Positions 38,025 through 54,480 of a DNA stretch of 64,000 nucleotides are shown here, one piece after another. This DNA comes from Microvirga sp. TS319 (lineage in GTDB: Bacteria; Pseudomonadota; Alphaproteobacteria; Rhizobiales; Beijerinckiaceae). The notes below the pieces were generated by a model. The model did not search any database. It had not been told where the DNA came from and worked only from the letters and a program-made list of their open reading frames with translations. How positions within the stretch are numbered: position 1 is the stretch's first letter; every line of letters begins with the position of its first letter. Location of the stretch: contig NZ_JBGGGT010000002.1 of NCBI RefSeq assembly GCF_041276405.1, positions 496,001 to 560,000 of the forward strand, read 5' to 3'. The position numbers and the translations under genes were made by a program.

Positions 38025-38315
38025 GTGGTGGAGACGAAGCGAAAGATTGCGCTGCCGTGGTACAATCGCGAGGATTACGCCGACATCCGCGGCATGGTGG
38101 CCGATGCCCATAACCTTGCTCCAACGTACGAGCAATGGCGTGCCGCCGCAGAGAACAACGAAAGCGTGGGGCGGCAATCGGGGCTCGAAATCGAGCGGAT
38201 CCTGATCGAGCCTTCCTCCTTCGCCCGCTGGTGCGCCGCTGAAGGAGCGGCCCCGGACAGCGCGGCGCGGATGCGCTATGTCGCCGAACTGCAGGCCCAA
38301 ACAGCCAAGCCTTGA
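38025..38315 (+). CDS. Small conserved hypothetical protein (96 aa)
   Basis: Starts at tandem GTG codons (MVETKRKIALPWYNREDY) with GAGGGAG upstream. Soluble, acidic, with YEQWRAAAENNESVG and IEPSSFARWCAAEG. No family known to me. It lies in line with the preceding hypothetical gene; the pair may share the spoVR transcript or have its own promoter. Confidence 0.6.
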   Translation: MVETKRKIALPWYNREDYADIRGMVADAHNLAPTYEQWRAAAENNESVGRQSGLEIERILIEPSSFARWCAAEGAAPDSAARMRYVAELQAQTAKP

Positions 38316-38352
38316 AGTCTCGTATCCTGTCTCTACTTGCTCGGAAAGAGGA

Positions 38353-39423
38353 ATGGAGACGGTCGACTTGTTGAACGATAAGGTCTTGGGGAATGACACA
38401 TTCGGCGCTTCCGGGGAGCCCGGTCCGGGCACCGTAAACGGCTCGGCAATCCAAGCGGCGAAGACCATGCGGGCGGCCATACTGACGGGCCCCGGGCAGA
38501 TCAAGATCGAGGAATTAGAGCTGCCTGAGCCTGGCGCGGGTCAGGTGCGGCTGCGTCTTGAAGGATGCGGTGTGTGCGCGTCCAATCTGACGCCCTGGGC
38601 AGGTCCCGACTGGATGCAGTTTCCCACCGAACCCGGTTCGCTCGGGCACGAGGCCTGGGGCATCGTCGACGCCGTCGGCGAGAATGTCGAAGGACTGGCC
38701 ATTGGCGACAGAGTCGCGGCCCTGACTTATAAATCCTATGCCCAATACGATATCGCCGATGTGGAATCGGTGGTGCGTCTGCCCGAGGCCCTCGCGGGCC
38801 AGCCTTTTCCCGGTGAGCCTCTCGGCTGCGCCATGAACATCTTCCGCCGCAGCGAGATTACGCCCGGGCAGACGATCGCCATCATCGGAATCGGCTTTCT
38901 GGGGGCGCTTCTCACCAAGCTTGCGACCGATGCCGGCGCGAGGGTGATCGCGATTTCACGCCGCCCCTTCTCGCTCGATCTCGCCCGTCGCATGGGAGCG
39001 GCCGAAGTGATCCCGATGGAAGATCACCATGCGATCATCGAAAGAGTGAAGGAACTGACGGGCGGGGCGTTCTGCGACCGCGTGATCGAGGCGGTCGGAA
39101 AGCAGTGGCCTCTTGATCTGGCGGGCGAGATCACCCGTGAACGCGGCAAGCTGATCGTGGCCGGTTATCATCAGGATGGGCCACGGCAGGTCAACATGTG
39201 GCTCTGGAACTGGCGCGGGATCGACGTGATCAATGCCCACGAGCGCGATTCTAAAATCTACATGCAGGGCATCCGAGAGGCGATCGATGCCATTGCCTCG
39301 GGGCGGATCGATCCAGGTTTTCTCTACACCCATACCTACCCGCTTGAACGGCTGAACGAGGCGCTCGACGCCACGCGTGATCGTCCGGACGGTTTTCTCA
39401 AGGCTCTGGTGACCTTCCAATGA
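38353..39423 (+). CDS. MDR-family dehydrogenase (zinc-type, lacking the structural zinc cysteines)
   Basis: 356 residues. Conserved MDR features: GCGVCASN and GHEAWG (catalytic zinc region), AIIGIGFLGALLTKLA (cofactor fold), HERDSKIYMQGIREA and the terminal YPLERLNEALD. The four-cysteine structural zinc loop is absent. The stretch MWLWNWRGIDVINAHERD is typical of an uncharacterised MDR subgroup near sugar or polyol genes. ATG 38353 has GAAAGAGGA immediately upstream. The stop overlaps the Gfo/Idh gene by four bases, so the two oxidoreductases are made together and may act on one polyol or sugar. Confidence 0.82.
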   Translation: METVDLLNDKVLGNDTFGASGEPGPGTVNGSAIQAAKTMRAAILTGPGQIKIEELELPEPGAGQVRLRLEGCGVCASNLTPWAGPDWMQFPTEPGSLGHEAWGIVDAVGENVEGLAIGDRVAALTYKSYAQYDIADVESVVRLPEALAGQPFPGEPLGCAMNIFRRSEITPGQTIAIIGIGFLGALLTKLATDAGARVIAISRRPFSLDLARRMGAAEVIPMEDHHAIIERVKELTGGAFCDRVIEAVGKQWPLDLAGEITRERGKLIVAGYHQDGPRQVNMWLWNWRGIDVINAHERDSKIYMQGIREAIDAIASGRIDPGFLYTHTYPLERLNEALDATRDRPDGFLKALVTFQ

Positions 39424-40448
39424 CACAGCAGGCTCCGATCGAGACGTCTCAGGCGACCGCCCTTGCTCGACCACGCCTCGGATTTCTGGGCGTAGGCTGG
39501 ATCGGGCGGCATCGCATGCAGGCGATCATGGGCACGGACGCGGTCGAGGTCGCAGCCATCGCCGACTCGTCGCCCGACATGGCGGCCGAGGCGGGAAAGC
39601 TCGTGCCGGAAGCAAGGCTCGTTACATCGTTGGACGACATTCTCGATCTCGGCGTCGATGGCGTGGTGATCGCGACGCCCAGCGCCATGCATGCAGAGCA
39701 GTCGATCCGGGCTCTCGAGCGCGGCGCCGCCGTGTTCTGCCAGAAACCCCTGGGCCGCAATGCCAGGGAGGTTGAGGCGGTCGTGGACGCGGCCCGACGG
39801 GCCGACCGGCTGCTTTGCGTCGATCTGTCCTATCGGTTCACGGAAGGCATGCGCCGCATCCGAGAGATCGTCGCTTCCGGCGAACTGGGCCATATCTATG
39901 CGGTCGATCTCGTGTTCCACAACGCCTATGGGCCGGACAAGCCGTGGTTCTACGACCCCGCTCTGTCCGGGGGCGGCTGTGTCATGGATCTCGGCGTCCA
40001 TCTGGTCGATCTCGCCTTGTGGATTCTCGACAATCCCGGCATCGGACCGGTCTCCGGAAAGCTCTTCGCGGCTGGACGGCCGCTCAAGGATGCCGCCTCT
40101 CAGGTGGAAGACTACGCGGTCGCGACCGTAGAGACCGATACGGGCGCGGTGGTCCAGCTCGCATGTTCCTGGAAACTTCAGGCGGGTTGCGATGCCGTCA
40201 TCTCGGCGACCTTCTACGGAACGCAAGGCGGTGTATCGCTGCGCAATGTCAACGGATCGTTCTATGATTTCACGGCCGAGCGATATTGGGGCACGTCGCG
40301 AGAAATGCTCGCTACGCCACCCGATGAATGGGGAGGGCGCGCCGCAGCCGACTGGGCGTTCCGTCTGGCGGCAGGCGAACGTTTCGACCCGGCGGCTCGC
40401 GAGCTCATCACCGTCGCCCGCGTGTTGGATCGAATCTACGGCAGATAA
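39420..40448 (+). CDS. Gfo/Idh/MocA family oxidoreductase
   Basis: 342 residues. N-terminal Rossmann domain with GFLGVGWIGRHRMQAI; the EKP catalytic motif reads QKPLGRN (Glu replaced by Gln), then FYDPALSGGGCVMDLGVHLVDLA with the conserved Asp/His pair of the dimerisation domain. The family includes inositol and sugar dehydrogenases. Its position between a dehydrogenase and a cluster containing inositol-phosphate synthase hints at inositol or activated-sugar chemistry, but the Glu-to-Gln change in EKP is unusual. Overlaps the upstream gene (ATGA). Confidence 0.85.
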   Translation: MTQQAPIETSQATALARPRLGFLGVGWIGRHRMQAIMGTDAVEVAAIADSSPDMAAEAGKLVPEARLVTSLDDILDLGVDGVVIATPSAMHAEQSIRALERGAAVFCQKPLGRNAREVEAVVDAARRADRLLCVDLSYRFTEGMRRIREIVASGELGHIYAVDLVFHNAYGPDKPWFYDPALSGGGCVMDLGVHLVDLALWILDNPGIGPVSGKLFAAGRPLKDAASQVEDYAVATVETDTGAVVQLACSWKLQAGCDAVISATFYGTQGGVSLRNVNGSFYDFTAERYWGTSREMLATPPDEWGGRAAADWAFRLAAGERFDPAARELITVARVLDRIYGR

Positions 40449-40507: not shown

Positions 40508-40800
40508 TTAGAGCATCCAACGCGGGAAGTGGATTTGCACTTTTAGAGCAAATTGCATTCTGACGGGATCAGAATGCTTGCTCTTTCTCTTTGGCGAAGC
40601 ATCGTTTTTCGCGAAGAACCGGTTTCCACTTCTTCGCACGATGCTTTAGGATCCCCTCCGAGGCTCCCTTCTTGGAAAGAGCGCATCGTTTGAGCGGACC
40701 CGAAGGGCCACGTTCGTGAAAACCGGGGCCACTTTTCGCCAGAGCATCGGACGTGAAAAGTGGAATCCACTTTTAGGATCAGATCCGACGCGCTCATCCG
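40508..40800. repeat. Mosaic of several palindromic REP-like repeats
   Basis: About 290 bases composed almost entirely of repeat units: AGAGCATCCAACGC..., a separate dyad ATTCTGA...TCAGAAT framed by AGAGCAA / TTGCTCT, GAAGCATCG...CGATGCTT, GCGCATCGT, and AGAGCATCGGACGTGAAAAG. At least four partial units of two types are interleaved. No gene fits here. It separates two converging operons. Confidence 0.8.
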
Positions 40801-40829: not shown

Positions 40830-41762
40830 TTACGAGACCTCGATCAGCTTTTTCTCGGCTGCGCTCGTGTCGGCATGGGGCGCATAGCGCCGGATCATAC
40901 TTGCGCAGAACTCCGCGAACTCCTCCTTCACCTGCGGGGGGCTGGTATGGTGCGGTGCGATCCCGCGATGCTCCGGCGTGAAGCAGAAGGTAACCGTTAC
41001 ATCGAAATCCGCGAGCGCCTCCATCTGCCGGTCGAACCAATCCAGCGCATTGGGACGGAAGCTGTCGGCCCAGGAGAGGCCCGTGCGCAGGTATTTCACG
41101 CCGAGCCGCTTCATCCAGGCGACCGCGTCGTCGAGGCGATGGTCCTCGAAATGGAACCATTGGCAAAGTCCCATTTGCCCGGCGTACTTTTCATACTCCT
41201 TGAGCGCAGGCTTCGGCGTACCGTCCTCCCGCAGGAGACCCATGTAGAAGTGCCGGTAGTAGGACGAGCCTTCCGCCTCCCGATGGCGCGTGGTGGCCTC
41301 CCATGCGCGAGGCAGGTCGTAGAGACTGTACCAATGAATCTTCGGCACCTTGCCGATGAGCAGCTCCGCCGTGCGGTTCAAGCCCCAGGCCTGGATCTCC
41401 TCGGCTCCGAACGTGGAGACGCCCACTTCCGTGACCCAGATCGGCTTGTCGGTGACGGCGCGGATCTCGTCGACCTTCGCAGGCCATTCATGGATCTGCC
41501 ACAGGTTCCAGTCGAGCGGGAAGCCGTGGACGGCGACCACGTCCACGTGATCGAGAACGCCGCGCGTCCTCAGATTGTTGATGAAGCCGGGATCGATCGG
41601 CGACATGCCCCCGAGAACGCGCGGCAGGTTGGGATTGGCTTCCTTGATCGCCTGTCCGGCAGCGATCGCCATCTCGGAAAAGAGCCTCCAATCCGGATCG
41701 ATCTCCGGGTCCCAATGGGACTTGTTGTTGGGCTCGTTCCAGATCATTGCAGCTTCAATCAT
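40830..41762 (-). CDS. TIM-barrel glycoside hydrolase with circularly permuted halves (xylosidase-like)
   Basis: 310 residues. Clan-A retaining glycosidase motifs are present: acid/base Glu10 in IWNEPN and nucleophile Glu112 in WVTEVG. They are placed far too near the N-terminus. The usual barrel end (YSLYDLPRAW and GLLREDGTPKPAL) falls near residue 200, and what is normally the N-terminal half follows it (WFHFEDHRLDDA, LRTGLSWADSFRP, TFCFTPEHRG, ASMIRRYAP). Strand order therefore appears to be beta4-8 then beta1-3. ATG 41762 overlaps the methyltransferase stop (ATGA). No signal peptide, so it acts in the cytoplasm. Last gene of the left glycan operon. Confidence 0.75.
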   Translation of the reverse strand: MIEAAMIWNEPNNKSHWDPEIDPDWRLFSEMAIAAGQAIKEANPNLPRVLGGMSPIDPGFINNLRTRGVLDHVDVVAVHGFPLDWNLWQIHEWPAKVDEIRAVTDKPIWVTEVGVSTFGAEEIQAWGLNRTAELLIGKVPKIHWYSLYDLPRAWEATTRHREAEGSSYYRHFYMGLLREDGTPKPALKEYEKYAGQMGLCQWFHFEDHRLDDAVAWMKRLGVKYLRTGLSWADSFRPNALDWFDRQMEALADFDVTVTFCFTPEHRGIAPHHTSPPQVKEEFAEFCASMIRRYAPHADTSAAEKKLIEVS

Positions 41763-42532
41763 GCGGTTCTCCCCTGAGCCGGATAGACCGCGCCAGCTCC
41801 CGGCGGGGCGTCGACACGGCGGCAAATGTAAACTTCTTCTTCCGGATGCTGAGTGATCTCGAATCCGGCGCTGCGGAGCATGGCTTCGACGCAGGCCGCA
41901 TTCGGCGCCCACCAATTGGTCGGGTCGTCCGCATAGCGATGTTCGATGAAATGCATCTTCGGGTAGCGCGGATCGTCGAAATGCTCGGTCTGCCAGAAGG
42001 TGTAATTCTCCTCCACCGGCATCGTTTTGCTCGAACCGCGCTGCATGGATTGAAACACCAGCATTTCCTTGGCCACATGCTCGTGGATCAGGTCCAGCGC
42101 CAGGAGCGGATGACGCAGATGATAGAGGACGCCCATGAAGATGACGACGTCGAACGTCTCGCCGAGCTGGCCGAGATCGTAAACCGAGAGCCTGCGGAAC
42201 TCGATGTCATGCCCCGTCACCTCGGCCGCGAAACGGGCCTGAGCGAGATATGCATCATCGAAGTCGATGCCGAGTACACGCTCGGCGCCTCGCTTCTTCA
42301 TCTCGATGGAGTAGAAGCCAGCGTTGCAGCCGATGTCGAGGACGCTCTTGCCCGTCAGGTCCTGCGGGATCGCACCCGAGAAGTTCTTCCACTTGATGGC
42401 TGGGTAGTTTCCGAGGAAGTGGTTGGGGGCCGTCCAGATCCCCTCCCTGATTTCCATGTTGTGAAACCAGGGGCCGAGCGCTTCGGCCCTTCTCCTGATG
42501 TCCTCGGGGGACATGGGGTCCATGACATTCAT
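41759..42532 (-). CDS. SAM-dependent methyltransferase (TIGR04290-like)
   Basis: 257 residues. Rossmann methyltransferase motif I is VLDIGCNAGFYSIEM, motif II LGIDFDDAYL, and motif IV VVIFMGVLYHLRHPLLAL; the wider layout resembles CmoB-type enzymes and the TIGR04290 family found in uncharacterised glycan clusters. Likely methylates a sugar or inositol hydroxyl or a lipid-linked acceptor. Overlaps the glycosidase downstream and is six bases from the nucleotidyltransferase upstream. Confidence 0.85.
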   Translation of the reverse strand: MNVMDPMSPEDIRRRAEALGPWFHNMEIREGIWTAPNHFLGNYPAIKWKNFSGAIPQDLTGKSVLDIGCNAGFYSIEMKKRGAERVLGIDFDDAYLAQARFAAEVTGHDIEFRRLSVYDLGQLGETFDVVIFMGVLYHLRHPLLALDLIHEHVAKEMLVFQSMQRGSSKTMPVEENYTFWQTEHFDDPRYPKMHFIEHRYADDPTNWWAPNAACVEAMLRSAGFEITQHPEEEVYICRRVDAPPGAGAVYPAQGRTA

Positions 42533-42538
42533 CGAAAA

Positions 42539-43351
42539 CTACTCCCTGCTCAAATCGTGGAGGCCTCGAGGCAGGCGCCCTGCGGGCCAGCCGAGAGCGA
42601 CGCGCGCTCCGGTCATCGTGTCGTGCTGGGCGGCCTCGCTCAGAAGGCCGATGGCGGATCGGTAGCCGTGAAGAGTGCCCACATCGACATAGGACTCTCC
42701 CGCCCTGACGCCGAGCGCCTGTCCACCCTGCGCGAGATAGGCGTTGACGAGTGTGCCGAAATATTCGTCCTGACGATTGCGCGAGAGCCAGAGCTGGCGC
42801 AGCGATTCAAGAATGGAGCCAGGCATCTTGAAGGCGCCCCAGATCCATTTCGACGAGGCATCCTCCCGCTTGACCTGGATTTCCCGGACCTGCATGGCCT
42901 CGTCGAGAACGACGGCGTCGAAGACCTGCGGGTTCTCGACGGGAAAGAGGAGGAAGGATAGCTGGCCTTCAGGAAGCTCCGCGAGCGCCTTTTCGGGGAA
43001 CCATACGGTGTCCGGGAGCCCCACGATGACGCTTTCGTCCGCAGGAATGAGCGGAGCCGCCTGAAAGATCGCATCGCATAGCCCTGCGGCCTGCGGCTGA
43101 ACGACATAGGCGATGGAGGCGCTGCCATAGCTTGCGCCGTAGTATTCCATGATGTCGGATTTGCCTGGAGAAATGACGAAGCATATCTTGTCCGCTCCGC
43201 CATGGATCATGCGTTCGACGAGATATTCGCTCACGGCGCATGGGCGTTCCACGCCGTTGTCGAGGCGGCTTCCGACCGGGAGCAGCTCCTTCGAGAACGC
43301 CAGAGGCTGAATGCGACTGCCGAGCCCGGCTGCGGGTATGATGCCCCACAT
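42539..43351 (-). CDS. RmlA-type sugar-phosphate nucleotidyltransferase
   Basis: 270 residues. Starts MWGIIPAAGLGSRIQPL with the nucleotide-binding GxGxR pattern and SKELLPVG. VIVGLPDTVWFPE holds the metal-binding Asp, and YVDVGTLHGYRSAI matches the C-terminal sugar-binding part. Such enzymes make an NDP-sugar from a sugar 1-phosphate and NTP. Beside inositol-1-phosphate synthase, an inositol-phosphate cytidylyltransferase role is conceivable but unproven. Three bases separate it from the glycosyltransferase gene. Confidence 0.85.
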   Translation of the reverse strand: MWGIIPAAGLGSRIQPLAFSKELLPVGSRLDNGVERPCAVSEYLVERMIHGGADKICFVISPGKSDIMEYYGASYGSASIAYVVQPQAAGLCDAIFQAAPLIPADESVIVGLPDTVWFPEKALAELPEGQLSFLLFPVENPQVFDAVVLDEAMQVREIQVKREDASSKWIWGAFKMPGSILESLRQLWLSRNRQDEYFGTLVNAYLAQGGQALGVRAGESYVDVGTLHGYRSAIGLLSEAAQHDTMTGARVALGWPAGRLPRGLHDLSRE

Positions 43352-43354
43352 GGT

Positions 43355-44473
43355 TCATGCCTCCATCATGGCTGTCGGTTGTCCCGATATGGACGATGCG
43401 GACGATGTGGACTTGGCGCCCGCAAGGAGAGCTTCAAGCTCACGGGCGCGGTGTTCCGACGTATGCTCGGCCATCGTGCGCTCCCGGCTGGCGCGGGCGA
43501 TCCGGCTCAGCTCCGCGTCCGAGAGATCGAGAGCCGCGACGGCATCCTCGGTCGTCTTCGCAATGAGGATCTCGTGGCCCGGGTCGAAAAACCGATCAAG
43601 GCCCTCCCAATCGTCGGAAAGGAGAGGAACCTCGCACGCCGATGCCTCGAAAAGGCGCCCGGAGGGGCACCATCCCATCTCTGCCATCGCCTGGCGCGTC
43701 ACGTTGAGGGTCAGGCGCGAGGACGAGAAGAAGGCCGGGTGCTCCGCCGGCGGCAGATGCCGCACGAAGTGGATGTTCGGCTGCCATGGGAAATCGTCGG
43801 GATACTGCGCTCCTCCGATCAGAAACCGCTGCTTCGGGCGCCGGGCCGCGGAGTCGATGAAGAGCCGCTGGAGCGCGGCCTGCCGGTCGGCGGCATAGGT
43901 CCCGAGATAGGAGAGATCGGACCCGTAATGAGCCATCGGCGCAGCAGGGCGATGAACGTCCGGATCCACATGGCCGTACAACGGGGCTACCCGTTGCGCG
44001 CCCAGTTCCGATTGCAGCTTGTCGAGAGCGCCACCGCCCGTATAGCTGAGGACGAGATCGAATTCGCGCAGGCCCCGGGAGCCGACATAGTTCAGCGGTT
44101 CCCTGGCCTGGAGCTTCGACAGGGTGACGGGAGTGTCGAGATCGTAGAATGTGCGGACGGCCTTCGGCGTGTCGAGCACCAGATCCGTGGCCTCGATGCC
44201 GTCCGGGCAATAGGACGTGACCATGGCCGCATCGGCGTCGGCAAGCTCAGCCTTCGCGCGGTGTCTGATCGAATCCCAGGTATCGTAGAGAACGAGTTTG
44301 CCGTTCGGGATCGCGACCATATCCCTGTTGGTTGCGTAATAGGGCACGTCCTTCTCGAAGAAGACGATCTGATGTCCATGACGGGCGAGCGCCCTGCACA
44401 GGCCCCGCCAGAGAGTGGCGTGGCCGTTGCCCCAGGACGAAGAGATGGTGAGCCCGAAAACGACAAGCTTCAT
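43355..44473 (-). CDS. CgeB-like glycosyltransferase (GT-B fold), paralogue A
   Basis: 372 residues. N-terminus MKLVVFGLTISSSWGNGHAT, with FFEKDVPYYATNRDM and YDLDTPVTLSKL. The C-terminal domain has LTLNVTRQAMAEMGWCPSGR and LFEASACEVPLLSD, the acidic/phosphate region of CgeB-family (PF13524) glycosyltransferases. Clearly paralogous to the protein at 52221 on the opposite arm. No membrane segments, so cytoplasmic or peripheral. Its start overlaps the phosphatase stop by four bases. Confidence 0.85.
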   Translation of the reverse strand: MKLVVFGLTISSSWGNGHATLWRGLCRALARHGHQIVFFEKDVPYYATNRDMVAIPNGKLVLYDTWDSIRHRAKAELADADAAMVTSYCPDGIEATDLVLDTPKAVRTFYDLDTPVTLSKLQAREPLNYVGSRGLREFDLVLSYTGGGALDKLQSELGAQRVAPLYGHVDPDVHRPAAPMAHYGSDLSYLGTYAADRQAALQRLFIDSAARRPKQRFLIGGAQYPDDFPWQPNIHFVRHLPPAEHPAFFSSSRLTLNVTRQAMAEMGWCPSGRLFEASACEVPLLSDDWEGLDRFFDPGHEILIAKTTEDAVAALDLSDAELSRIARASRERTMAEHTSEHRARELEALLAGAKSTSSASSISGQPTAMMEA

Positions 44474-45069
44474 GCGGCGATCACCTCGTTCATGTGAAGA
44501 ACCTTGGAGCCCCAGTCGCCGATGACGAGCGTCGTCATGGAAGCCGGAGAGACTTCGAAACGGCCGTATGAATCGAGAGGCATGCCCAGATAGTAGAGAA
44601 GGGCGGCCTTGATCACGTCGCTATGGCTGACGAGAACGACGGCGCGTCCTGCATGGAATCCTCGAAGCTCTTCCATGGCATGGACGATACGCGTCTGCGC
44701 CTCCAGCATCGTTTCGCCTCCCGGCGGGCGGATCGTGCTGCGGCTGCTGTTCCAGGCCGACCATAGCCGGTCTTCGGCCAGGCTGTCGAAACTTTTGCCC
44801 GACCATGCGCCGAAATCGATCTCGATGATGTCGTCGAGATGCTCGACGGGCCTGGCGAGGCGCGCCGCGATGGGCTCGGCCGTCTCGACTGCCCGCTCGA
44901 GCGGGCTCGTGAGAATGCGCACGACGTTCTCGCGAGCAAGGCGTTCAGCGAGCGCCTGCGCCTGTGTCCTTCCCAGATGGCCAAGGCGCACCCCCGGGAT
45001 GCGCCCGCACAGCACGGTTCCCACACGATCATGGGCGGCGTGACGCACAAGGAAGAAGGTGGTGGTCAC
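44470..45069 (-). CDS. Histidine phosphatase (phosphoglycerate-mutase superfamily)
   Basis: 199 residues. Catalytic His in LVRHAAHD (RHG changed to RHA), Arg/Glu in SPLERAVETAEP, acidic IDFGAWSGKSF, and second His in LVSHSDVIKA. Size fits the small phosphatases related to alpha-ribazole phosphatase and GpgP. Thirteen bases downstream of ino1, so it may dephosphorylate the inositol-1-phosphate or a glycosylated phosphate intermediate. The substrate is inferred from context only. Confidence 0.87.
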   Translation of the reverse strand: MTTTFFLVRHAAHDRVGTVLCGRIPGVRLGHLGRTQAQALAERLARENVVRILTSPLERAVETAEPIAARLARPVEHLDDIIEIDFGAWSGKSFDSLAEDRLWSAWNSSRSTIRPPGGETMLEAQTRIVHAMEELRGFHAGRAVVLVSHSDVIKAALLYYLGMPLDSYGRFEVSPASMTTLVIGDWGSKVLHMNEVIAA

Positions 45070-45082
45070 GCCCGGAGCCTCC

Positions 45083-46171
45083 TCACGTCTCTTCGTCCTT
45101 GCCTGCGACGAAGCGCAGCGTCCTTTCTCGCGCCTCGTTGTCGGTGAACTGCTGTGGAGGAGACTTCATGAAATAGCTCGAAGGTCCCGTGAGCGCTCCG
45201 CCGATCTTTCGATCCATGGCGATTTTTGCGCAGCGCACCGCGTCGATGACGATTCCTGCGGAATTGGGTGAATCCCAGACTTCGAGTTTCAGCTCCACGT
45301 TGAGCGGAACGCCCCCGAAGGCGGTTCCTTCCATACGGATATAGGCCCATTTCCGGTCGGTGAGCCACGGGACATGGTCGCTCGGACCGACATGGACGTC
45401 CTCCGGCGGGAGGGGAATATCGAGCTGGCTCGTCACGGCCTGCGTCTTGGAAATCTTCTTCGATTCCAGGCGCTCGCGCTCGAGCATGTTCTGGAAGTCC
45501 GTATTGCCGCCGAAATTGAGCTGATAGGTTCGGTCGAGGCGCACGCCGCGCTCGCGGAAAAGATTGGCCAGCACCCGGTGGACGATCGTGGCGCCGACCT
45601 GACTCTTGATATCGTCGCCGACGATGGGAAGGCCGCGTTCCTCGAAGCGCTTCCGCCATTCGGGGTTGGAGGCGATGAAGACGGGAATGCAGTTCACGAA
45701 GGCGCAGCCGGCCTCCAGAGCCTGCTCGGCATACCACTCCGTGGCCTTCTGGGATCCGACCGGAAGATAGGAGACGAGCACATCGGTCTTGGATTGGCGC
45801 AGGATCTCCGCGACATTGGCTTCGTCTTCGGGCGATTCTTCGATCTCGTCGCGAAGATATTTGCCCAATCCATCGAGAGTCTTGCCGCGACGGACAATGA
45901 TCCCGCTCTCGGGCACCGTGGAAAAGCGCTGGGTGTTGTTGGGCGCGGCGAAGATGGCCTCCGAGACGTCCCGGCCGACCTTCGAGGCGTTCACGTCGAA
46001 GGCCGCGGAAATCTCCACATCGCTGATATGATAGCCACCAAGCTCGACATTCATCAGGCCTGGAATGGGCTCGTTGATCTGAGCGCTGCGGTAATAGGAA
46101 AGGCCTTGCGCGAAGGACGAGGCGCAGTTGCCGACGCCGACGATTCCGACGCGGACCTTTCGTGAGCTCAT
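45083..46171 (-). CDS. ino1: myo-Inositol-1-phosphate synthase
   Basis: 362 residues. NAD-binding start [17 protein letters not shown], then the conserved [27 protein letters not shown] and SKKISKT, and near the end [18 protein letters not shown], all hallmarks of bacterial and archaeal Ino1. Converts glucose-6-phosphate to inositol-1-phosphate with transient NAD reduction in the cytoplasm. First gene of the six-gene left operon, with an exact EcfG promoter upstream (46270-46295). Ino1 is uncommon outside actinobacteria and some alphaproteobacteria, and implies an inositol-containing product. Confidence 0.95.
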
Positions 46172-46590: not shown

Positions 46591-47703
46591 GTGGCGGATA
46601 CGATCCTCATTACTGGCGGCGCTGGCTTCATCGGTCGCTACGTTGCGCGCGCCTGCTTGGAGCGTGGGCACCGTGTTCGTGTGCTCGACAGCCTCATCGA
46701 GCAGGTTCACGGCGACAGGACGCAGGTCGATGGTCTCGATTCCGAAGTGGAGGTCGTCGTTGGCGACGTACGTGACGAGACGGCGGTTCTGAAGGCCCTG
46801 AAGGGGGCCACGAAGGTCGTCCATCTCGCGGCGGAGGTCGGTGTCGGCCAGAGCATGTACGCGGTCGACCGCTATGTGTCCGTGAACGACTACGGCACGG
46901 CCGTGCTGTTCCAGCAGCTCATCGACAATCCTGTGAAGCGGGTCGTCGTCGCCTCCTCCATGAGCATCTATGGGGAGGGACTCTACCGGGATGCCGACGG
47001 GCGCCTCATGGAGGATGTGGTGCGCGTGCCCCGCACCAGCGAGGCCGATTCCTGGGACCCGCTCGATGCACAGGGCAGGCCGCTCGTTCCGGTGCCGACT
47101 CCGGAATGGAAGAAGCCCGCGCTCGCATCCGTCTATGCGCTGTCGAAATATGTGCAGGAGCGCCTGACGCTGACCCTCTGTCCAGCCTATGGCATGGAGG
47201 GCGTCGCGCTCAGGCTCTGGAACGCCTACGGCCCAGGCCAGGCCCTGTCCAATCCCTATACCGGCGTTCTCGCCATCTTCGCATCGCGACTTCACAACGG
47301 ACAGCCGCCCATGATCTTCGAGGACGGCCAGCAGCGCCGCGACTTCGTTCACGTGGAGGATGTTGCGCAGGCCTTCGTCCTGGCGCTGGAGCACGAGAAG
47401 GCGCCGGGCGGCGTGTTCAATGTCGGCAGCGGCGTGGACCGGACCGTATCGGAAGTGGCGGAGCTTCTGGCTAGGGCCATGAACCGCCCGATTGCGCCCG
47501 AGATTGCGGGTAAAGCGCGCATCGGCGACATCCGCCACTGCATCGCGGATATCTCGAAGATCCAGCAGGAGCTGGGCTACAGGCCGAAGAAGGACTTCTC
47601 GGAAGGACTGGCGGAACTCGCCGCGTGGGTGGCTCGCCAGGAAGCCAAGGACCTCGTTCAGGAGGCCCGCAAGGAACTCGAATCGCGAGGCCTTGTCGCA
47701 TGA
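46591..47703 (+). CDS. NAD-dependent sugar epimerase/dehydratase (extended SDR), copy 1
   Basis: 370 residues. NAD site ITGGAGFIGRYVARACLE; catalytic Ser in ASSMSIYGEG and Tyr-x-x-x-Lys in YALSKYVQERL; FVHVEDVAQAFVLALEH and VFNVGSGVD follow the NDP-sugar epimerase pattern. An insertion of about 35 residues after IYGEG (about 130-165) is longer than in GalE. GTG start at 46591 with CGGAGA upstream. Overlaps the next epimerase gene (ATGA). Supplies a modified NDP-sugar to the glycosyltransferases downstream. Confidence 0.88.
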   Translation: MADTILITGGAGFIGRYVARACLERGHRVRVLDSLIEQVHGDRTQVDGLDSEVEVVVGDVRDETAVLKALKGATKVVHLAAEVGVGQSMYAVDRYVSVNDYGTAVLFQQLIDNPVKRVVVASSMSIYGEGLYRDADGRLMEDVVRVPRTSEADSWDPLDAQGRPLVPVPTPEWKKPALASVYALSKYVQERLTLTLCPAYGMEGVALRLWNAYGPGQALSNPYTGVLAIFASRLHNGQPPMIFEDGQQRRDFVHVEDVAQAFVLALEHEKAPGGVFNVGSGVDRTVSEVAELLARAMNRPIAPEIAGKARIGDIRHCIADISKIQQELGYRPKKDFSEGLAELAAWVARQEAKDLVQEARKELESRGLVA

Positions 47704-48818
47704 AGGAATCGGATTCAAAGACCGGCGCGCCGGCCATTCTTCGTCGCCGCCCCGTCCTGGTGACAGGGGGAGCAGGTTTCATCGGTTCCAATCTGGCGGA
47801 TCGGTTCGCCAGCGAAGGGCATGACGTTCTGATCTACGATGCTCTGGCTCGCCCCGGCGTCGACCGGAACCTCGAATGGTTGAAGAAGCGCCACCCCTCG
47901 AAGATCTCCGCAGCTATCGCCGATATTCGCGACGAGACGGCGGTCTCCGATGCGGTCTCCGACGCTCAGGCCGTCTTTCACATGGCCGCGCAGGTCGCGG
48001 TGACGACGAGCCTCGCCGATCCCCGCGAGGATTTCGAAATCAATATCCGCGGCACCTTGAACGTGCTCGATGCTTTGCGCAAACGCAGCGAGCCCGTTCC
48101 TCTCGTCTTCGCTTCCACGAACAAGGTCTATGGCGACCTCGTGGACGTGGAGCTCGACATGACGAACGATGCCTATGTGCCACGCGATCCGGCCATTCGC
48201 GACAACGGAATCGGCGAAAGCCGCCCTCTCGATTTCCATACGCCTTATGGCTGCTCCAAAGGAGCGGCCGATCAGTATGTCCTCGACTTCGCACGCTCCT
48301 TCGGCATTCCCACCTGCGTCCTGCGGATGAGCTGCATCTACGGGCAGCGTCAGATGGGAACGGAAGATCAGGGGTGGGTCGCCCATTTCCTGATCCGCGC
48401 CCTCGAAGGCAGGCCGATCGCCATCTACGGCGACGGCTGCCAGGTGCGCGACATCCTCAACATTTCCGACGCGGTCGATGCCTATGCCCAAGCCTGGAAG
48501 CGCATCGGCGCCGTTCAGGGGCGCGCCTTCAATCTGGGCGGCGGACCCGCGAATGCGATCAGCCTGAGGCAGCTCCTCGTCCACATCGAGGATCTTATCG
48601 GGCGTCCGGTCGAAACCGCCTATGCCGATTGGCGAGCGGGCGACCAGCGCTACTACGTCTCCGATACCCGTCGGATCGCACGCGAACTCGCCTTGAAGAC
48701 TCCGACGCCGTGGCGCAAGGGTGTGGCCGCCCTGGCGCGATGGCTGCAGGAAGAGAGAGGATTGTCGGGAACGATACGGCACAGCCCGCCGCTTCAGGAA
48801 GCTGCGATCGTGCCATGA
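47700..48818 (+). CDS. NAD-dependent sugar epimerase (CDP-paratose 2-epimerase-like)
   Basis: 372 residues. VTGGAGFIGSNLADRFASEG, the TNKVYGD element that is typical of CDP-tyvelose/paratose 2-epimerases, RPLDFHTPYGCSKGAADQY with Tyr-x-x-x-Lys, and RDILNISDAVDAYA. The enlarged C-terminal sugar domain has YADWRAGDQRYYVSDTRR. The first 14 residues (MKESDSKTGAPAIL) are a polar tail. ATG chosen from the four-base overlap with the upstream gene. Sugar identity not known. Confidence 0.87.
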   Translation: MKESDSKTGAPAILRRRPVLVTGGAGFIGSNLADRFASEGHDVLIYDALARPGVDRNLEWLKKRHPSKISAAIADIRDETAVSDAVSDAQAVFHMAAQVAVTTSLADPREDFEINIRGTLNVLDALRKRSEPVPLVFASTNKVYGDLVDVELDMTNDAYVPRDPAIRDNGIGESRPLDFHTPYGCSKGAADQYVLDFARSFGIPTCVLRMSCIYGQRQMGTEDQGWVAHFLIRALEGRPIAIYGDGCQVRDILNISDAVDAYAQAWKRIGAVQGRAFNLGGGPANAISLRQLLVHIEDLIGRPVETAYADWRAGDQRYYVSDTRRIARELALKTPTPWRKGVAALARWLQEERGLSGTIRHSPPLQEAAIVP

Positions 48819-48887
48819 GAGGCGGATTGGTTGCCGCTGTGCAACGCATTGACCCAACTGACACGGCGTGAAGAGGATAGAAGAGGC

Positions 48888-50024
48888 ATGTCTGCACGGA
48901 AACAGACCGGTCCCGCTCTTCGTGTTCTCATGACGGCCGATGCCGTCGGCGGTGTCTGGCAATATGCGCTGGATGCTGCCGAGGGCATGCGTGCGCATGG
49001 TGTCGAAACGATCCTCGCCGTACTCGGCCCTGCGCCCTCGGGAGATCAGCTGGAGAAGGCGAGGACGAGCGGCATCGAGGTCATCGATACAGGGCTTCCC
49101 CTCGACTGGACGGCCGAGCAGGCTGGCGAAGTGGCGGCGGCCGGGCAGTCGATTGCGCGTCTCGCAGCCGAAATTCGGCCCGACATCGTGCATCTCAACT
49201 CTCCCGCGTTGCTTGCCGATGGATCGTTTGCCCGTCCCGTGGTGGCCGTGTGCCACTCATGTGTCGCCACCTGGTGGGAATCCGTGCGCGGGGGACCGCT
49301 TCCCGAGGCGTTCGAGTGGCGGACGGAACTCGTTCGCAGGGGCTATCGTGCCGCTGACATGCTCCTGGCCCCGACCGCCGCGTTCGCTCATGCCACGGCC
49401 CGCGTCTACAACCTCGCGGAAGTCCCGACGGTCGTCCGGAACGGGCGTCGACCCGCTCGAGGCGAGGCTCCGGGGACGCGTGACCTCTTTGCCTTCACGG
49501 CCGGACGCCTTTGGGATGACGGCAAGAATTTCGCGGCGTTCGATCGGGCCGCAGCGCATCTTTCCATCCCGGCTTTGGCGGCTGGCCCGCTCGGCGGGCC
49601 CAACGGCACCCAGATTGCGGCTCGTCACGCCATCGCCCTGGGACGGCTCAGTGACGAGGAGGTCGCCGGGTACTTGAGCGCGCAGCCCATCTTCGTGTCG
49701 GCCGCGAAATACGAGCCGTTCGGCCTCGCCGTGCTGGAAGCCGCGCAGGCGGGCTGCGCGCTGATCCTGTCCGACATCCCGACACTGCGCGAGTTGTGGG
49801 ATGGCGCGGCCCTGTACGTGGCACCGGATGACGATGACGCTTTTGCGCGATCGATCGAGCGGCTGAGTGCGGACGAAACGATGCGTCGCGCCATGGGGGA
49901 AGCAGCGAAAAAGCGGGCGGGAGCCTACAGCGTGGGAGCCATGAGCGCGGGCATCCTCTCTGCCTACAGGGCTCTGATTCCCTCCAGATTCCGCTCCATT
50001 TCGCTCAAAGGAGCCGCTGCATGA
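48888..50024 (+). CDS. GT4-family glycosyltransferase
   Basis: 378 residues, GT-B fold. N-terminal VLMTADAVGGVWQYALDAAEGM is the acceptor-side glycine motif; C-terminal FAFTAGRLWDDGKN, then VSAAKYEPFGLAVLEAAQAG with the E-x7-E donor motif (EPFGLAVLE). Transfers a sugar from a nucleotide donor. ATG 48888 has AAGAGG upstream; an earlier ATG at 48831 would include a stretch unlike the family. Stop overlaps the next gene (ATGA). Confidence 0.9.
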   Translation: MSARKQTGPALRVLMTADAVGGVWQYALDAAEGMRAHGVETILAVLGPAPSGDQLEKARTSGIEVIDTGLPLDWTAEQAGEVAAAGQSIARLAAEIRPDIVHLNSPALLADGSFARPVVAVCHSCVATWWESVRGGPLPEAFEWRTELVRRGYRAADMLLAPTAAFAHATARVYNLAEVPTVVRNGRRPARGEAPGTRDLFAFTAGRLWDDGKNFAAFDRAAAHLSIPALAAGPLGGPNGTQIAARHAIALGRLSDEEVAGYLSAQPIFVSAAKYEPFGLAVLEAAQAGCALILSDIPTLRELWDGAALYVAPDDDDAFARSIERLSADETMRRAMGEAAKKRAGAYSVGAMSAGILSAYRALIPSRFRSISLKGAAA

Positions 50025-51133
50025 AGTTTGCCTATTTCACTCACTCCCTTGCATCCTGCTGGAATCACGGCAATGCGCATTTCCTGAGAGGCGTGCTGCG
50101 CGATCTCGTTCACCGCGGACACGAGGTCGTGGCTTACGAGCCTGAAGGAGCATGGAGCCTTGACAATCTCCTGCGGGATCATGGAGAGGCCGGGCTCGAG
50201 GCTTATCGTAATCTTTACCCGGAGCTGTCCTCGACCGCATTCGAGGCCGATGCCGATCTCTCCGAGATGGTGTCGGACGCGGATGTGGTGATCGTCCATG
50301 AATGGAACGATCCGTGGCTCGTCGCGGCCATCGGCGCGCTGCGGAGCCAGGGTGCGCGGTTCACCCTTCTCTTTCACGACACGCATCATCGGGCGGTCAG
50401 CGATCCGAACGCGATTCGTCAATTCGATCTGAGCGGATACGACGGCATTCTCGCCTTCGGCGAGACGCTGGCCGAGGTCTATCGTCGCTGGGGCTGGGGC
50501 GAGCGTGTCCATGTCTGGCACGAGGCGGCCGATACGCGGCTCTTTCATCCACCGACGGAAGAGGTCGAACGCAAGGGCCTCGTCTGGATCGGCAATTGGG
50601 GCGACGACGAGCGCAGCGCGGAACTGGAGACCTATCTCTTTCGCCCGGCTCGGACCGTAGGGCTGCCCCTCGACATCTACGGCGTGCGTTATCCTGAGCA
50701 CGCTCTGGAGACCCTGGATCGCTACGGCGTCACGTATCGGGGCTGGCTGCCGAATGCGCGGGCCCCCGAGGTGTTCGCACGCCACTTGGCTACGGTGCAT
50801 GTGCCGCGCCGCTTCTACGTGGATATGCTTCCCGGCATTCCCACGATCCGGGTCTTCGAGGCGCTTGCTTGCGGAATTCCTCTCATATCTGCGCCCTGGC
50901 GCGATTCGGAGGGGCTTTTCAATCCGGGCGAGGACTATCTGGTCGCACGCGACGAGGCCGAGATGGAGCGTCATCTCACGGCCGTCAGCCGTGATCCTGA
51001 TTTACGGCGCTTCCTCGTGACGAACGGATTGGCCGCCATCCGCAACCGCCACTCCTGTGCGCACCGAGTCGATCAGTTGCTCACGATCCTGAAAACCTAC
51101 GGTGCCGAAGCGCCGATGGAGATGTCCGCATGA
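50021..51133 (+). CDS. CgeB-like glycosyltransferase, paralogue B
   Basis: 370 residues. MKFAYFTHSLASCWNHGNAH at the N-terminus; VIVHEWNDPWLVAAIG; LLFHDTHHRAVSD; C-terminal VPRRFYVDMLPGIPTIRVFE and ALACGIPLISAPWRDSEGLF, the CgeB/GT-B donor region. Most divergent of the four CgeB-type proteins here. Cytoplasmic or peripheral. Start and stop overlap its neighbours by four bases, implying coupled translation. Confidence 0.83.
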   Translation: MKFAYFTHSLASCWNHGNAHFLRGVLRDLVHRGHEVVAYEPEGAWSLDNLLRDHGEAGLEAYRNLYPELSSTAFEADADLSEMVSDADVVIVHEWNDPWLVAAIGALRSQGARFTLLFHDTHHRAVSDPNAIRQFDLSGYDGILAFGETLAEVYRRWGWGERVHVWHEAADTRLFHPPTEEVERKGLVWIGNWGDDERSAELETYLFRPARTVGLPLDIYGVRYPEHALETLDRYGVTYRGWLPNARAPEVFARHLATVHVPRRFYVDMLPGIPTIRVFEALACGIPLISAPWRDSEGLFNPGEDYLVARDEAEMERHLTAVSRDPDLRRFLVTNGLAAIRNRHSCAHRVDQLLTILKTYGAEAPMEMSA

Positions 51134-52224
51134 AGATAGCCTTTTACGGCTCCAGCCTTCTCTCCTCCTACTGGAACGGGGCGGCGACCTACTACAGAGG
51201 TATGCTGAGCGAACTCGCCCGCCGCGGCTACGGCATCACGTTCTACGAGCCCGATGCGTTCGACCGTCAGAAGCATCGCGACATCGACCCGCCGGAATGG
51301 GCCGAGGTCAAGGTCTATCCGGCCACCGAGGAGGCCATGCGCGGCGTCGTGGCCGAGGCCGCGAAGGCCGATGTGGTGGTCAAGGCGTCCGGGGTCGGCG
51401 TGTTCGACAACGAGCTCCTGGAGGGTGTCGTCGCAGCGTCGCGGCCCGACGCCATTCGCATTTTCTGGGACGTGGATGCCCCGGCGACGCTCGCGGAGCT
51501 GCGGGAGAGCCCGGATCATCCGTTGCGGCGCACGCTTCCCGCCCTCGACTTCGTCCTCACCTATGGCGGAGGCCCGCCGGTGATCGAGGCCTATGAGGGA
51601 TTCGGCGCGCGGCGCTGCATCCCGATCTACAACGCGCTCGATCCTTCGACTCACCACCCGGTGCCAGCCGACGATCGCTTCAAGGCCGATCTCTCGTTTC
51701 TCGGGAATCGACTGCCAGACCGCGAGGCGCGCGTGGAGCAGTTCTTCCTGGAGCCCGCCGCGCGTCTGCCGAACCGGAGCTTTCTGATCGGCGGCAATGG
51801 TTGGGAGACGAAAGGCATGCCGCCGAACGTGCGCCATATCGGGCATGTCTATACACGCGATCACAACGCCTTCAACACGAGCCCGCTCGCGGTCCTGAAT
51901 ATCGCACGCGATTCCATGGCGACGACAGGCTACTCGCCGGCGACGCGTGTGTTCGAAGCGGCAGGCGCAGGCGCGTGCCTCATCACCGATGCATGGGCCG
52001 GCCTCGAACTCTTCCTGAAAGAGGGAGAGGAGGTTTTGGTCGCCCGAGACGGCAAGGACGTGGCCGACCATGTGGAGAGGTTGGATCCCGAGCGGGCGAG
52101 GGCCATCGGCGATGCTGCCCGGCGACGGATCATGGCCGAGCACACCTATGCCAGACGGGGAGCCGAGGTGGATGCGCTTCTGCGTGACATGGCTTCGCAG
52201 AAGCGCGAGAGGAGCGTCGCGTGA
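51130..52224 (+). CDS. CgeB-like glycosyltransferase, paralogue C
   Basis: 364 residues. MKIAFYGSSLLSSYWNGAAT, IFWDVDAPATLAELRES (compare YDLDTPVTLSKL in paralogue A), LTYGGGPPVIEAYEGFGARR, LNIARDSMATTGYSPATRVF and EAAGAGACLITDAWAGLE. Same family and domain order as A and D. Coupled by four-base overlaps on both sides. Confidence 0.84.
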   Translation: MKIAFYGSSLLSSYWNGAATYYRGMLSELARRGYGITFYEPDAFDRQKHRDIDPPEWAEVKVYPATEEAMRGVVAEAAKADVVVKASGVGVFDNELLEGVVAASRPDAIRIFWDVDAPATLAELRESPDHPLRRTLPALDFVLTYGGGPPVIEAYEGFGARRCIPIYNALDPSTHHPVPADDRFKADLSFLGNRLPDREARVEQFFLEPAARLPNRSFLIGGNGWETKGMPPNVRHIGHVYTRDHNAFNTSPLAVLNIARDSMATTGYSPATRVFEAAGAGACLITDAWAGLELFLKEGEEVLVARDGKDVADHVERLDPERARAIGDAARRRIMAEHTYARRGAEVDALLRDMASQKRERSVA

Positions 52225-53330
52225 GCGGATTGCGCATCGTCGTACTCGGCCTGAGTCTTTCGTCGTCATGGGGCAACGGCCACGCCACAACCTTCCGGGC
52301 CCTGCTCAAGGCATTCGGCGCCCGGGGACACGACGTGCTGTTCCTGGAGCGCGACGTGCCATGGTATGCCGCGCACCGGGACATGAAGGATCCCGATTTC
52401 TGCCGCCTCGAGTTCTATACGAGCCTGGGGGACCTGGAGCGTTACAGGAAAGTCATTGCCGCAGCCGATGCGGTGATCGTAGGCTCCTACGTGCCCGAGG
52501 GCGTTGCCGTCGGGCGATGGGTCCAGGAAGTGGCGGACGGAACCGTCGCCTTCTACGACATCGATACCCCCGTGACGCTGGCGAAGCTGGAGAGAGGCGA
52601 TTACGAATATCTCTCGCCGGATCTGATCCCGCATTACGACGTCTACTTCTCGTTCACGGGTGGCCCGACGCTCGATCTGCTCATGGAGCGATACGGAGCT
52701 CCGGCGGCGCGAGCGCTCTATTGCTCCGTCGACCCTGAACTCTATCCCGTGCTCGACCGGACGAAGCGCTGGGACCTGAGCTATCTCGGCACGTACAGCC
52801 CGGACCGGCAGCCCACGCTCGGGACACTCCTGATCGAGCCCGCCCGGCGTGCGCCGCATCTGCGCTTCGTGGTGGCCGGGCCGCAATATCCCGCCGATAT
52901 CGCATGGCCGGAGAACGTGGAGCGCATCGATCACGTGCCACCCAGCGAGCATCCGGCTTTCTACGCACAGAGCCGCTTCACGCTCAATGTCACCCGCGCG
53001 GACATGATCCGCGCCGGGTATAGCCCCAGCGTTCGCCTGTTCGAGGCAGCCGCCTGCGGAACGCCGATCATCTCCGATATATGGAACGGGATCGAGACGC
53101 TTCTGACGCCCGGGCGAGAGATCGCGCTCGCCCGGCAGGCCGATGACGTCCTCCATGTTCTGGAAGGAGCGGACGGGTTCGCGCGCGATATGATGGGGCA
53201 GGAAGCGAGGCGGCGCATCCTGGCCGAACACACGTCCTCCCATCGCGCCGCTTCCATGGAGCGCGACCTGATTGCGGCGATGAATCGCCGGAAGAAGGAA
53301 CATCGTCTGATGTGGGAAGTAAGAGCTTGA
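52221..53330 (+). CDS. CgeB-like glycosyltransferase, paralogue D
   Basis: 369 residues. The N-terminus VLGLSLSSSWGNGHATTFRA and FLERDVPWYAAHRDM, YDIDTPVTLAKLE, and LNVTRADMIRAGYSPSVRLF correspond almost motif for motif to paralogue A at 43355, so the two probably share donor or acceptor type. Last gene of the tightly overlapping right-arm block; the UXS-like gene follows after 115 bases with its own promoter candidate. Confidence 0.85.
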   Translation: MSGLRIVVLGLSLSSSWGNGHATTFRALLKAFGARGHDVLFLERDVPWYAAHRDMKDPDFCRLEFYTSLGDLERYRKVIAAADAVIVGSYVPEGVAVGRWVQEVADGTVAFYDIDTPVTLAKLERGDYEYLSPDLIPHYDVYFSFTGGPTLDLLMERYGAPAARALYCSVDPELYPVLDRTKRWDLSYLGTYSPDRQPTLGTLLIEPARRAPHLRFVVAGPQYPADIAWPENVERIDHVPPSEHPAFYAQSRFTLNVTRADMIRAGYSPSVRLFEAAACGTPIISDIWNGIETLLTPGREIALARQADDVLHVLEGADGFARDMMGQEARRRILAEHTSSHRAASMERDLIAAMNRRKKEHRLMWEVRA

Positions 53331-53359
53331 GAGGCGTGAATAGATTCTGAGGCCGACAT

Positions 53360-53384
53360 TGAACCTATGCCAAGCTTCGGCGTT
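53360..53384 (+). promoter_or_regulatory. Candidate EcfG-like promoter before the UXS-like gene
   Basis: TGAAC, 16 bases, CGTT: one mismatch in the -35. It sits in the only gap longer than 100 bases of the right arm, 61 bases before the UXS-like start. Confidence 0.45.
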
Positions 53385-53445
53385 GGACCGATGCAGGTTT
53401 GTACCTCGGGACCGCTGCCGGCGGTCCGATACGGAGATGGTCTTC

Positions 53446-54480
53446 ATGAAGAATGGCAGGAGCAAACTCGTCCTTGTCGCGGGTGGGGCCGGCTTCCTCG
53501 GATCGCATTTATGTGACGCTCTGCTGAGCGAAGGCGCGCATGTGGTGGCTGTCGACAACCTGCAGACCGGTCGGCGGCAGAACCTTAGGCATTTGGAGCG
53601 CGAGCCGCGGTTCGATCTCGTCGACAGAGACATCATCAAGGCGCTTCCGGCGCGCCTGCGCTCGAAGAAGATGAAGTTCGACGAGGTCTTCAATCTCGCA
53701 TGCGCGGCATCTCCGCCTCACTATCAGGCCGATCCGGAGCACACCATGCTTACCAGCGTGGTCGGCACCCACAACCTTCTGACATTCGCCGAGACGATCG
53801 GGGCACGCTTCTTCCTGGCCTCCACCAGCGAGATCTATGGCGACCCTGAGGTGCACCCGCAGAAGGAAAGCTATTGGGGGAACGTGAACCCCACCGGGCC
53901 GCGTGCCTGCTACGACGAGGGCAAGCGCGCAGCCGAAACGCTGACCTTCGATTTCGAACGCTCGAGCCGGGCGGATGTGCGCGTCGCGCGCATCTTCAAC
54001 ACCTACGGGCCCCGCATGCGCGCCGACGACGGGCGCGTGGTCTCCAACGTCATCTGCCAGGCGCTGTCCGGCGACGACATCACCGTTTACGGAGACGGCA
54101 GCCAGACGCGTTCTTTCTGCTACGTATCCGATCTTGTCGACGGCTTCATGCGTCTCATGGCCTATGAGGGGCCTTTCCCCGGCGCCGTCAACCTCGGCAA
54201 CCCGAACGAGCTCACCGTCGGGGATCTGGCGGAGAAGGTTCTGGCCATGACCGGGTCCTCTTCCCGGATCGTATCGCGCCCGCTCCCGGTGGACGATCCG
54301 CGCCGCCGCCGTCCCGACATCACGCTTGCAAAGCAGCTTCTCGGCTGGTCGCCGAAGACGTCGCTCGATACGGGCCTGAGGGAGACCATCGCCTGGTTCT
54401 CGGACGAGCGCTCCGATGCCGGCAAGGCCGCCCGCGCGCCGACCATGCTTCAGGGAGCCGTCGCGGAAAGGCAGTCCTGA
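53446..54480 (+). CDS. UDP-glucuronate decarboxylase-like protein (UDP-xylose synthase type)
   Basis: 344 residues, extended SDR. LVAGGAGFLGSHLCDALL, NLACAASPPHYQ, STSEIYGDPEVHPQKE and PTGPRACYDEGKRAAETL with Tyr-x-x-x-Lys are diagnostic of UXS, which makes UDP-xylose from UDP-glucuronate. FNTYGPRM and the late RRRRPDITLAKQLLGW segment fit too. ATG 53446 preferred because CGGAG is nine bases upstream, while the ATG at 53437 directly abuts that site. Together with a xylosidase-like gene on the other arm it suggests a xylose-containing product. Confidence 0.88.
   Translation: MKNGRSKLVLVAGGAGFLGSHLCDALLSEGAHVVAVDNLQTGRRQNLRHLEREPRFDLVDRDIIKALPARLRSKKMKFDEVFNLACAASPPHYQADPEHTMLTSVVGTHNLLTFAETIGARFFLASTSEIYGDPEVHPQKESYWGNVNPTGPRACYDEGKRAAETLTFDFERSSRADVRVARIFNTYGPRMRADDGRVVSNVICQALSGDDITVYGDGSQTRSFCYVSDLVDGFMRLMAYEGPFPGAVNLGNPNELTVGDLAEKVLAMTGSSSRIVSRPLPVDDPRRRRPDITLAKQLLGWSPKTSLDTGLRETIAWFSDERSDAGKAARAPTMLQGAVAERQS

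Follow-up and report, generated by a model that had tools for sequence, protein, structure and literature searches.

It is uncommon for the barrel of an enzyme to be circularly permuted in nature. Retaining glycosidases of clan GH-A are (beta/alpha)8 barrels carrying the acid/base glutamate after an asparagine at the end of beta4 and the nucleophile glutamate at the end of beta7, and glycoside hydrolase (GH) families 70 and 13 belong to another clan, GH-H. In this work a GH gene of Microvirga sp. TS319 was analysed, located within a 64,000-nucleotide stretch (contig NZ_JBGGGT010000002.1, positions 496,001 to 560,000 of the forward strand) which as a whole is called the window. Profile comparison together with a predicted structure shows that the gene encodes a clan-A-type (beta/alpha)8 barrel that is circularly permuted, with beta4-beta8 followed by beta1-beta3.

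Unlike the permuted GH, its sister family (many of the proteins P0124-P0243) has the standard strand order, is mostly fused to an NAD-dependent epimerase, here named Epim2, and is sometimes eroded. Examples of the fused form are found on Rhizobium etli CIAT 652 plasmid pC (11632-13674 of locus L126) and on Tistrella mobilis plasmid NC_017957. The fused epimerase is named 'CDP-paratose 2-epimerase' by some sources. PslG of Pseudomonas aeruginosa, a GH39 protein, belongs to a polysaccharide locus. With the family profile it is the closest solved sequence (E 4e-6; PDB 5bx9, 4zn2, 9g17), and it is also the closest solved relative by the model of the normal-order sister.

GH70 glucansucrases are described, in PMC4919382, as permuted relatives of GH13 with a chain starting at alpha3-beta4, and their origin is modelled there as duplication, fusion and end trimming. 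GH barrels with a circularly permuted chain have a precedent in GH70. For GHs of clan A, no paper on a permutation was found in the open-licence PMC literature, which is not proof of absence; papers on GH70 were found.

Order of the barrel strands

The gene and the parts of its product are as follows (HMM, hidden Markov model).

41762-40830, minus strand: permuted GH gene for 310 amino acids, with the ATG at 41762 and the last base of the stop at 40830
41187..41762, minus strand: residues 1-192, the C-terminal part in normal-order relatives (beta4-beta8), by HMM match and predicted strands
40872..41177, minus strand: residues 196-297, the N-terminal part in normal-order relatives (beta1-beta3 and helix 3), by HMM match and predicted strands
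41733..41735, minus strand: codon of Glu10, predicted acid/base, in the NEP motif just after beta4; invariant, role by clan GH-A
41427..41429, minus strand: codon of Glu112, predicted nucleophile, at the end of beta7; invariant, role by clan GH-A

A preliminary description made from the letters alone had claimed that the two halves of the barrel are swapped. The motif order on which this claim was built is borne out and every named motif is present: along the chain they are IWNEPN (residues 7-12), WVTEVG (109-114), GLLREDGTPKPAL (175-187), WFHFEDHRLDDA (202-213), LRTGLSWADSFRP (225-237), TFCFTPEHRG (258-267) and finally ASMIRRYAP (287-295). The numbering given for WVTEVG was correct, but IWNEPN had been placed at 8-13 and GLLREDGTPKPAL near residue 200.

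A profile of the normal-order relatives matches the GH protein as two swapped pieces, covering profile positions 107-285 and then 3-106, of 295. The first piece (residues 3-186, profile positions 107-285) scores 135.7 bits and the second (residues 196-297, profile positions 3-106) scores 75.9 bits. The two pieces tile the profile, and the total for the natural protein is 211 bits. Three shuffled copies searched alongside it went unreported, and the match is therefore not due to chance. Both halves thus belong to one normal-order family at complementary positions, in line with the claimed swap.

In the structure model, strands are predicted in the first part at residues 4-8, 48-53, 75-79, 108-113 and 142-145, and in the second part at 197-200, 224-230 and 254-260, with a helix at 279-293. 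These are the eight strands of one barrel in the order beta4-8 and then beta1-3, which agrees with the preliminary description as far as the strand order is concerned. Structural matches to whole barrels cover residues 1-296. Aligned in sequence, the first part of the GH protein (residues 3-192) pairs with PslG 132-327 at 19.0 bits and the second (200-293) with PslG 25-128 at only 1.7 bits, and the order of the two alignments is already swapped.

A half-barrel GH with an unrelated C-terminal accessory domain, or a chimera, would need no circular permutation and could draw on the three Pfam hits, none of which extends past residue 117, and on the merely 1.7-5.3 bits of the second piece against PslG, but the second piece (residues 196-297) scores 76 bits against positions 3-106 of the one family that the first piece also matches, and the two tile the profile. 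The model shows exactly eight strands of one barrel, with whole-barrel matches spanning 1-296. The accessory-domain reading is thus refuted at the sequence level, and we give this alternative hardly any credence.

The start of the gene was compared across 80 named genome loci kept out of 546 (Microvirga, Roseomonas, Azospirillum, Methylobacterium, Mesorhizobium and others). In the window, the claimed four-base overlap with the methyltransferase gene is present (41759-41762). A methyltransferase gene adjoins the permuted GH in 73 of the 80 loci; the overlap is exactly 4 bases in 59 of these 73 and 8 bases in 11, and the remaining three have gaps of 12, 16 and 95 bases. At the homologous start position, 68 of 79 loci have ATG and 11 have GTG (L063 was set aside), and 17 of the 80 loci have no other in-frame ATG, GTG or TTG upstream before a stop. 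Neither a mis-set start, already discounted in the preliminary description, nor a local sequencing error therefore explains the order. These candidates, and likewise a frameshift, were rejected, the start arrangement and the order being conserved in many genomes.

Homologues were collected by two database searches with permuted queries. In each search 8000 candidates were scored, all with E <0.001, and the best 120 were listed; the permuted order is found in all 240 of these. Because only the best 120 of 8000 passing candidates were listed per search, the family is larger than 240 and the sample consists of close relatives. The permuted order is also found in two sets of 23 and 25 fetched permuted loci, and homologues next to TIGR04290 methyltransferase genes share it (73/80 loci). 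Together with the profile tiling and the modelled strand order, the homologues support the earlier suggestion of a natural circular permutation fixed in the family.

Trees were made from the pieces in a common register. The permuted rows form one bipartition in the first tree (FastTree 0.988; 60 permuted of 145 rows) and one clade in the second (ultrafast bootstrap, UFBoot, 100; 21 permuted of 93 rows), and the normal-order rows form their own group (UFBoot 99). The root of the GH tree rests on two distant sequences. Since each kind of row forms one group, the trees show a single origin of the permuted architecture among the rows examined, as sister to the fused normal-order family. A tandem-duplication intermediate was not seen among the proteins classified for order, which was not an exhaustive search, and no second, normal-order GH copy was found in the Microvirga sp. 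TS319 genome at E 0.01.

Family assignment and catalytic residues

Pfam gave weak clan-A matches to the GH protein. Glyco_hydro_cc scored 20.6 bits against a cut-off of 21, GH39 (PF01229) scored 11.4 bits, below its cut-off of 26, where a permuted chain can score in part only, and GH53 was far below cut-off. A GH39 match was absent also in three normal-order sisters tested (P0156, P0148, P0152). GH70 and GH13 were not among the three Pfam hits, no search having been aimed at them, and no NCBIfam model matches the GH protein of the window. 'Beta-xylosidase' is a frequent source name for the permuted proteins, without a supporting NCBIfam model.

Following the clan GH-A scheme, we take Glu10 to be the acid/base and Glu112 to be the nucleophile. 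The geometry of the clan is reproduced in the model, where E10 follows strand 4-8 and E112 lies within strand 108-113. Each of the 133 distinct permuted rows, drawn from genome and plasmid loci, keeps both glutamates and three more residues of the active site, and the mean column identity is 79% across 32 sequences. We infer from these residues that the permuted GH is catalytically competent and retaining. A non-catalytic relative with a structural or regulatory role would be compatible with the position of the gene within a biosynthetic cluster and with the loss of catalytic residues in some fused sisters, but it is improbable given five active-site residues kept in every permuted row and the high identity overall.

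In the normal-order proteins P0175, P0195, P0183 and P0180 the nucleophile position is occupied by glutamine, the first three having glutamine at the acid/base position as well. These substitutions suggest natural pseudo-enzymes or a changed role.

Permuted and fused forms across genomes

The permuted GH co-occurs with Epim2. An even draw of 385 alphaproteobacterial genomes was used for both the GH and the Epim2 searches, with the same draw size and with the same handles for every genome listed by both. GH matches were found in 15 genomes, of which 14 hold members and one (G378) a weak match to another GH. Epim2 was likewise found in 15, namely the same 14 and G358, where the contig begins just before Epim2. 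The 14 genomes divide into six with the permuted GH and a bare Epim2 (G000, G131, G336, G431, G524, G553), six with the fused GH only (G312, G327, G382, G441, G444, G537) and two with both forms (G484, G619). Additionally, Epim2 was present in 22 of 22 and 58 of 58 GH genomes chosen for test; these make up 80 of the 84 GH genomes counted.

The two forms were counted over overlapping draws of 299, 385, 82 and 347 genomes. The permuted form occurs in 73 genomes, while 13 have a fused normal-order GH, most of which is covered by the match; G993 and G812 are in both sets, the fused GH of G812 being partly eroded. In six more genomes the fused copy is either eroded (G619, G728-G731) or truncated at the contig end (G484). 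A normal-order GH was not found at the search threshold in 65 of the 73 permuted-form genomes, including G654, which keeps a fused-GH remnant of 19.9 + 17.5 bits. In six of the other eight the fused copy is eroded.

Erosion of the fused GH is observed in seven genomes that have both forms. Both are intact in G993. G484 has the permuted form and only the C-terminal part of the fused copy on the contig, with the nucleophile motif intact. The fused copy of G812 has no NEP motif, and G778, of the same genus, has a bare Epim2. In the five genomes of the genus g390 the permuted form is accompanied by fused copies in which the NEP motif is gone (5/5) and the nucleophile glutamate mostly so (4/5); the permuted form was confirmed there on fetched loci for G619 and G729 and by matched range for the others.

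Of the 61 ingroup tips in a tree of Epim2, 39 are bare, 12 fused and 7 eroded; 2 have both forms and 1 is unknown. The fused or unfused state needs 11 changes on this tree, or 15 if only losses are allowed. Well-supported groups of mixed state are Sinorhizobium meliloti, G265 and R. etli (98) and G787 with G918 (100); further ones are G812 with G778 (99) and G726 with G1028 (96).

Taking these data together, we lean towards the view that this is the first clan-GH-A-type barrel found to be circularly permuted in nature, and that it comes with an unusually complete replacement series in which the permuted stand-alone form repeatedly and independently supplants its epimerase-fused sister in largely the same clusters. 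The visible stages would be fused only, both intact, fused without the acid/base, fused without both catalytic residues, a remnant that is hardly recognisable, and a bare epimerase.

Gene cluster, proposed role and known systems

The neighbouring genes in the window are listed below (SDR, short-chain dehydrogenase/reductase).

41759..42532, minus strand: TIGR04290 family methyltransferase (NCBIfam TIGR04290, 386.7 bits, cut-off 300)
42539..43351, minus strand: nucleotidyl transferase, same operon as the GH (Pfam PF00483)
43355..44473, minus strand: glycosyltransferase, same operon as the GH (Pfam PF13524)
44470..45069, minus strand: histidine-phosphatase family protein, same operon as the GH (Pfam PF00300)
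45083..46171, minus strand: inositol-3-phosphate synthase-like protein, first gene of the operon (TIGR03450, 549.5 bits, below the cut-off of 638; PF01658)
46591..47703, plus strand: Epim1, NAD-dependent epimerase, starting the divergent operon (Pfam PF01370)
47700..48818, plus strand: Epim2, NAD-dependent epimerase without GH domain, four-base overlap with Epim1
48831..54480, plus strand: four glycosyltransferase-like genes and a third SDR (53359-54480), by tblastn synteny
38278..40448, plus strand: zinc dehydrogenase and Gfo/Idh/MocA oxidoreductase

The permuted GH is the last gene of the minus-strand operon, about 6 kb from the GH-less Epim2. The genes at 48831..54480 are mostly in the order seen in clusters carrying the fused GH, and the zinc dehydrogenase and Gfo/Idh/MocA neighbours are also found beside some of those clusters. 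The divergent operon is near-identical in content and mostly in order in normal-order genomes such as R. etli CIAT 652 (L126) and G265 (the cluster of G441 is rearranged), but Epim2 there bears the normal-order GH at its N-terminus. The fused gene of R. etli overlaps Epim1 by four bases, as Epim2 of the window does. S. meliloti 2011 pSymB (L124) has the permuted GH, with the Epim1 and Epim2 matches ~24 bases apart and the methyltransferase at the far end of the cluster, not adjoining the GH.

Among 398 genomes of the phylum, 14 have TIGR04290, together with the permuted GH in 12 and with the fused GH in 2. The permuted GH is not next to a TIGR04290 gene in 7 of the 80 loci, which are six from Methylobacterium (L053, L060, L061, L071, L072, L076) and one from Microvirga brassicacearum (L023). 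The six Methylobacterium loci are without nearly all other cluster genes sought in the sequence around the locus. The cluster of Azospirillum argentinense also has a TIGR04295 B12/radical SAM protein (L125:9714-11021, 705 bits), for which an NCBIfam scan of window genes gave no match. Downstream of the GH gene, dispersed repeats are found at window positions 40544-40650 and 40657-40745. The first, of ~106 bases, occurs dozens of times in the genome, most copies being 84-98% identical, and a second element lies beside it; repeat matches in the genome number 72 in all, query included. Regarding the cluster product, the literature on TIGR04290 and on inositol-3-phosphate synthase with pSymB gave nothing useful, and the single S. 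meliloti gene met there encodes an ABC-transporter protein.

The permuted GH is likely a retaining glycosidase that is active in the cytosol and serves a pathway of glycans or glycosides; its stand-alone form would repeatedly have made the fused form dispensable. At the level of sequence and model, the chain forms a full clan-A-type barrel starting at beta4 and ending after alpha3, in which a short turn at about residues 188-197 would link the ancestral termini (alpha8 and beta1). Judging from the invariant residues, E10 and E112 would act as acid/base and nucleophile in double-displacement (retaining) chemistry. The absence of a leader before beta4 and the fusion of the sister to an NAD-dependent enzyme point to action in the cytosol.

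Most likely the permuted GH and the fused domain share one chemical role in one pathway, namely the hydrolysis or transglycosylation of an intermediate inside the cell, either a glycan or a glycoside. This pathway would be that of the cluster, with its glycosyltransferases, nucleotide-sugar epimerases, inositol-3-phosphate synthase-like protein and methyltransferase. By analogy with PslG, the substrate may be an intermediate of the cluster product, from which a sugar is trimmed or transferred. The distribution suggests that the permuted GH replaces the fused domain in trans; with the permuted gene present, the fused copy would become dispensable, erode and finally be deleted, leaving a bare Epim2 as in the window. 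Activity, substrate, functional equivalence and direction of replacement are what we infer from these features.

The permuted GH may instead differ in function from the fused one, the pattern then reflecting two sub-clusters with the permuted gene in an Ino1-phosphatase-methyltransferase operon. The permuted gene does stand with the Ino1 and phosphatase genes, and the fused one with Epim2 and glycosyltransferases, as distinct modules which occupy separate genome regions in G993, G812, G619 and G729. Furthermore, the permuted and fused pieces are only 28-39% identical, their sister clades are deeply separated, and G993 has intact copies of both. However, a different function would not predict the complementary distribution, in which no normal-order GH reaches the threshold in 65/73 permuted genomes and six of the other eight are eroded, and Epim2 accompanies either GH in every genome tested (22/22, 58/58). 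This counts against a difference in function, which we regard as unlikely.

Several points weigh against the replacement of the fused by the permuted form, or against the model behind it. The active-site loops are poorly modelled (residues 11-15, 83-86, 163-166 and 263-273 have a predicted local distance difference test score, pLDDT, <50), as is the C-terminal tail (298-310, also <50). The 22- and 58-genome sets were picked for having a GH, and only the 385-genome draw is unbiased. Among the 81 normal rows are 10 in which, without any known permuted partner, at least one of the two catalytic glutamates is missing (P0129, one of these 10, seems to be truncated or frameshifted at that point), and erosion is therefore probably not caused by the permuted gene only. 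The sample of the Epim2 tree is enriched for bare Epim2, and equal-cost parsimony roots this tree in the unfused (bare) state; the tree therefore leaves room for repeated GH gain and by itself favours some gains. It is the existence of eroded fused copies, not the tree alone, that points to losses as dominant. Finally, the permuted clade is sister to the fused clade, not nested in it, and has a long stem (0.78-0.90). A recent excision of the GH from Epim2 is therefore not supported as the origin of the permutation.

The permuted GH is minimal, is found in many Alphaproteobacteria and was missed by a sequential structure search; family models and fold searches that follow sequential order can mis-assign permuted enzymes. 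Since the permuted form (S. meliloti 2011) and the fused form (R. etli CIAT 652) are present in two model genera, direct swaps are possible, and such swaps would address the effect of the permutation on folding, stability or partner dependence.

Among the known systems, the fused GH-epimerase is the closest normal-order relative found, being of the same family over the whole barrel (211 bits, same motifs) and from largely the same gene cluster. PslG differs from the permuted GH in its normal strand order and larger size, and is ~19% identical to the normal-order sister. According to PMC4919382, GH70 likewise has a naturally permuted GH barrel, which is cut at almost the same place and has known normal-order relatives. 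The GH70 proteins are multi-domain alpha-glucan enzymes, whereas the permuted GH is a minimal single domain of 310 amino acids with no room for a leader.
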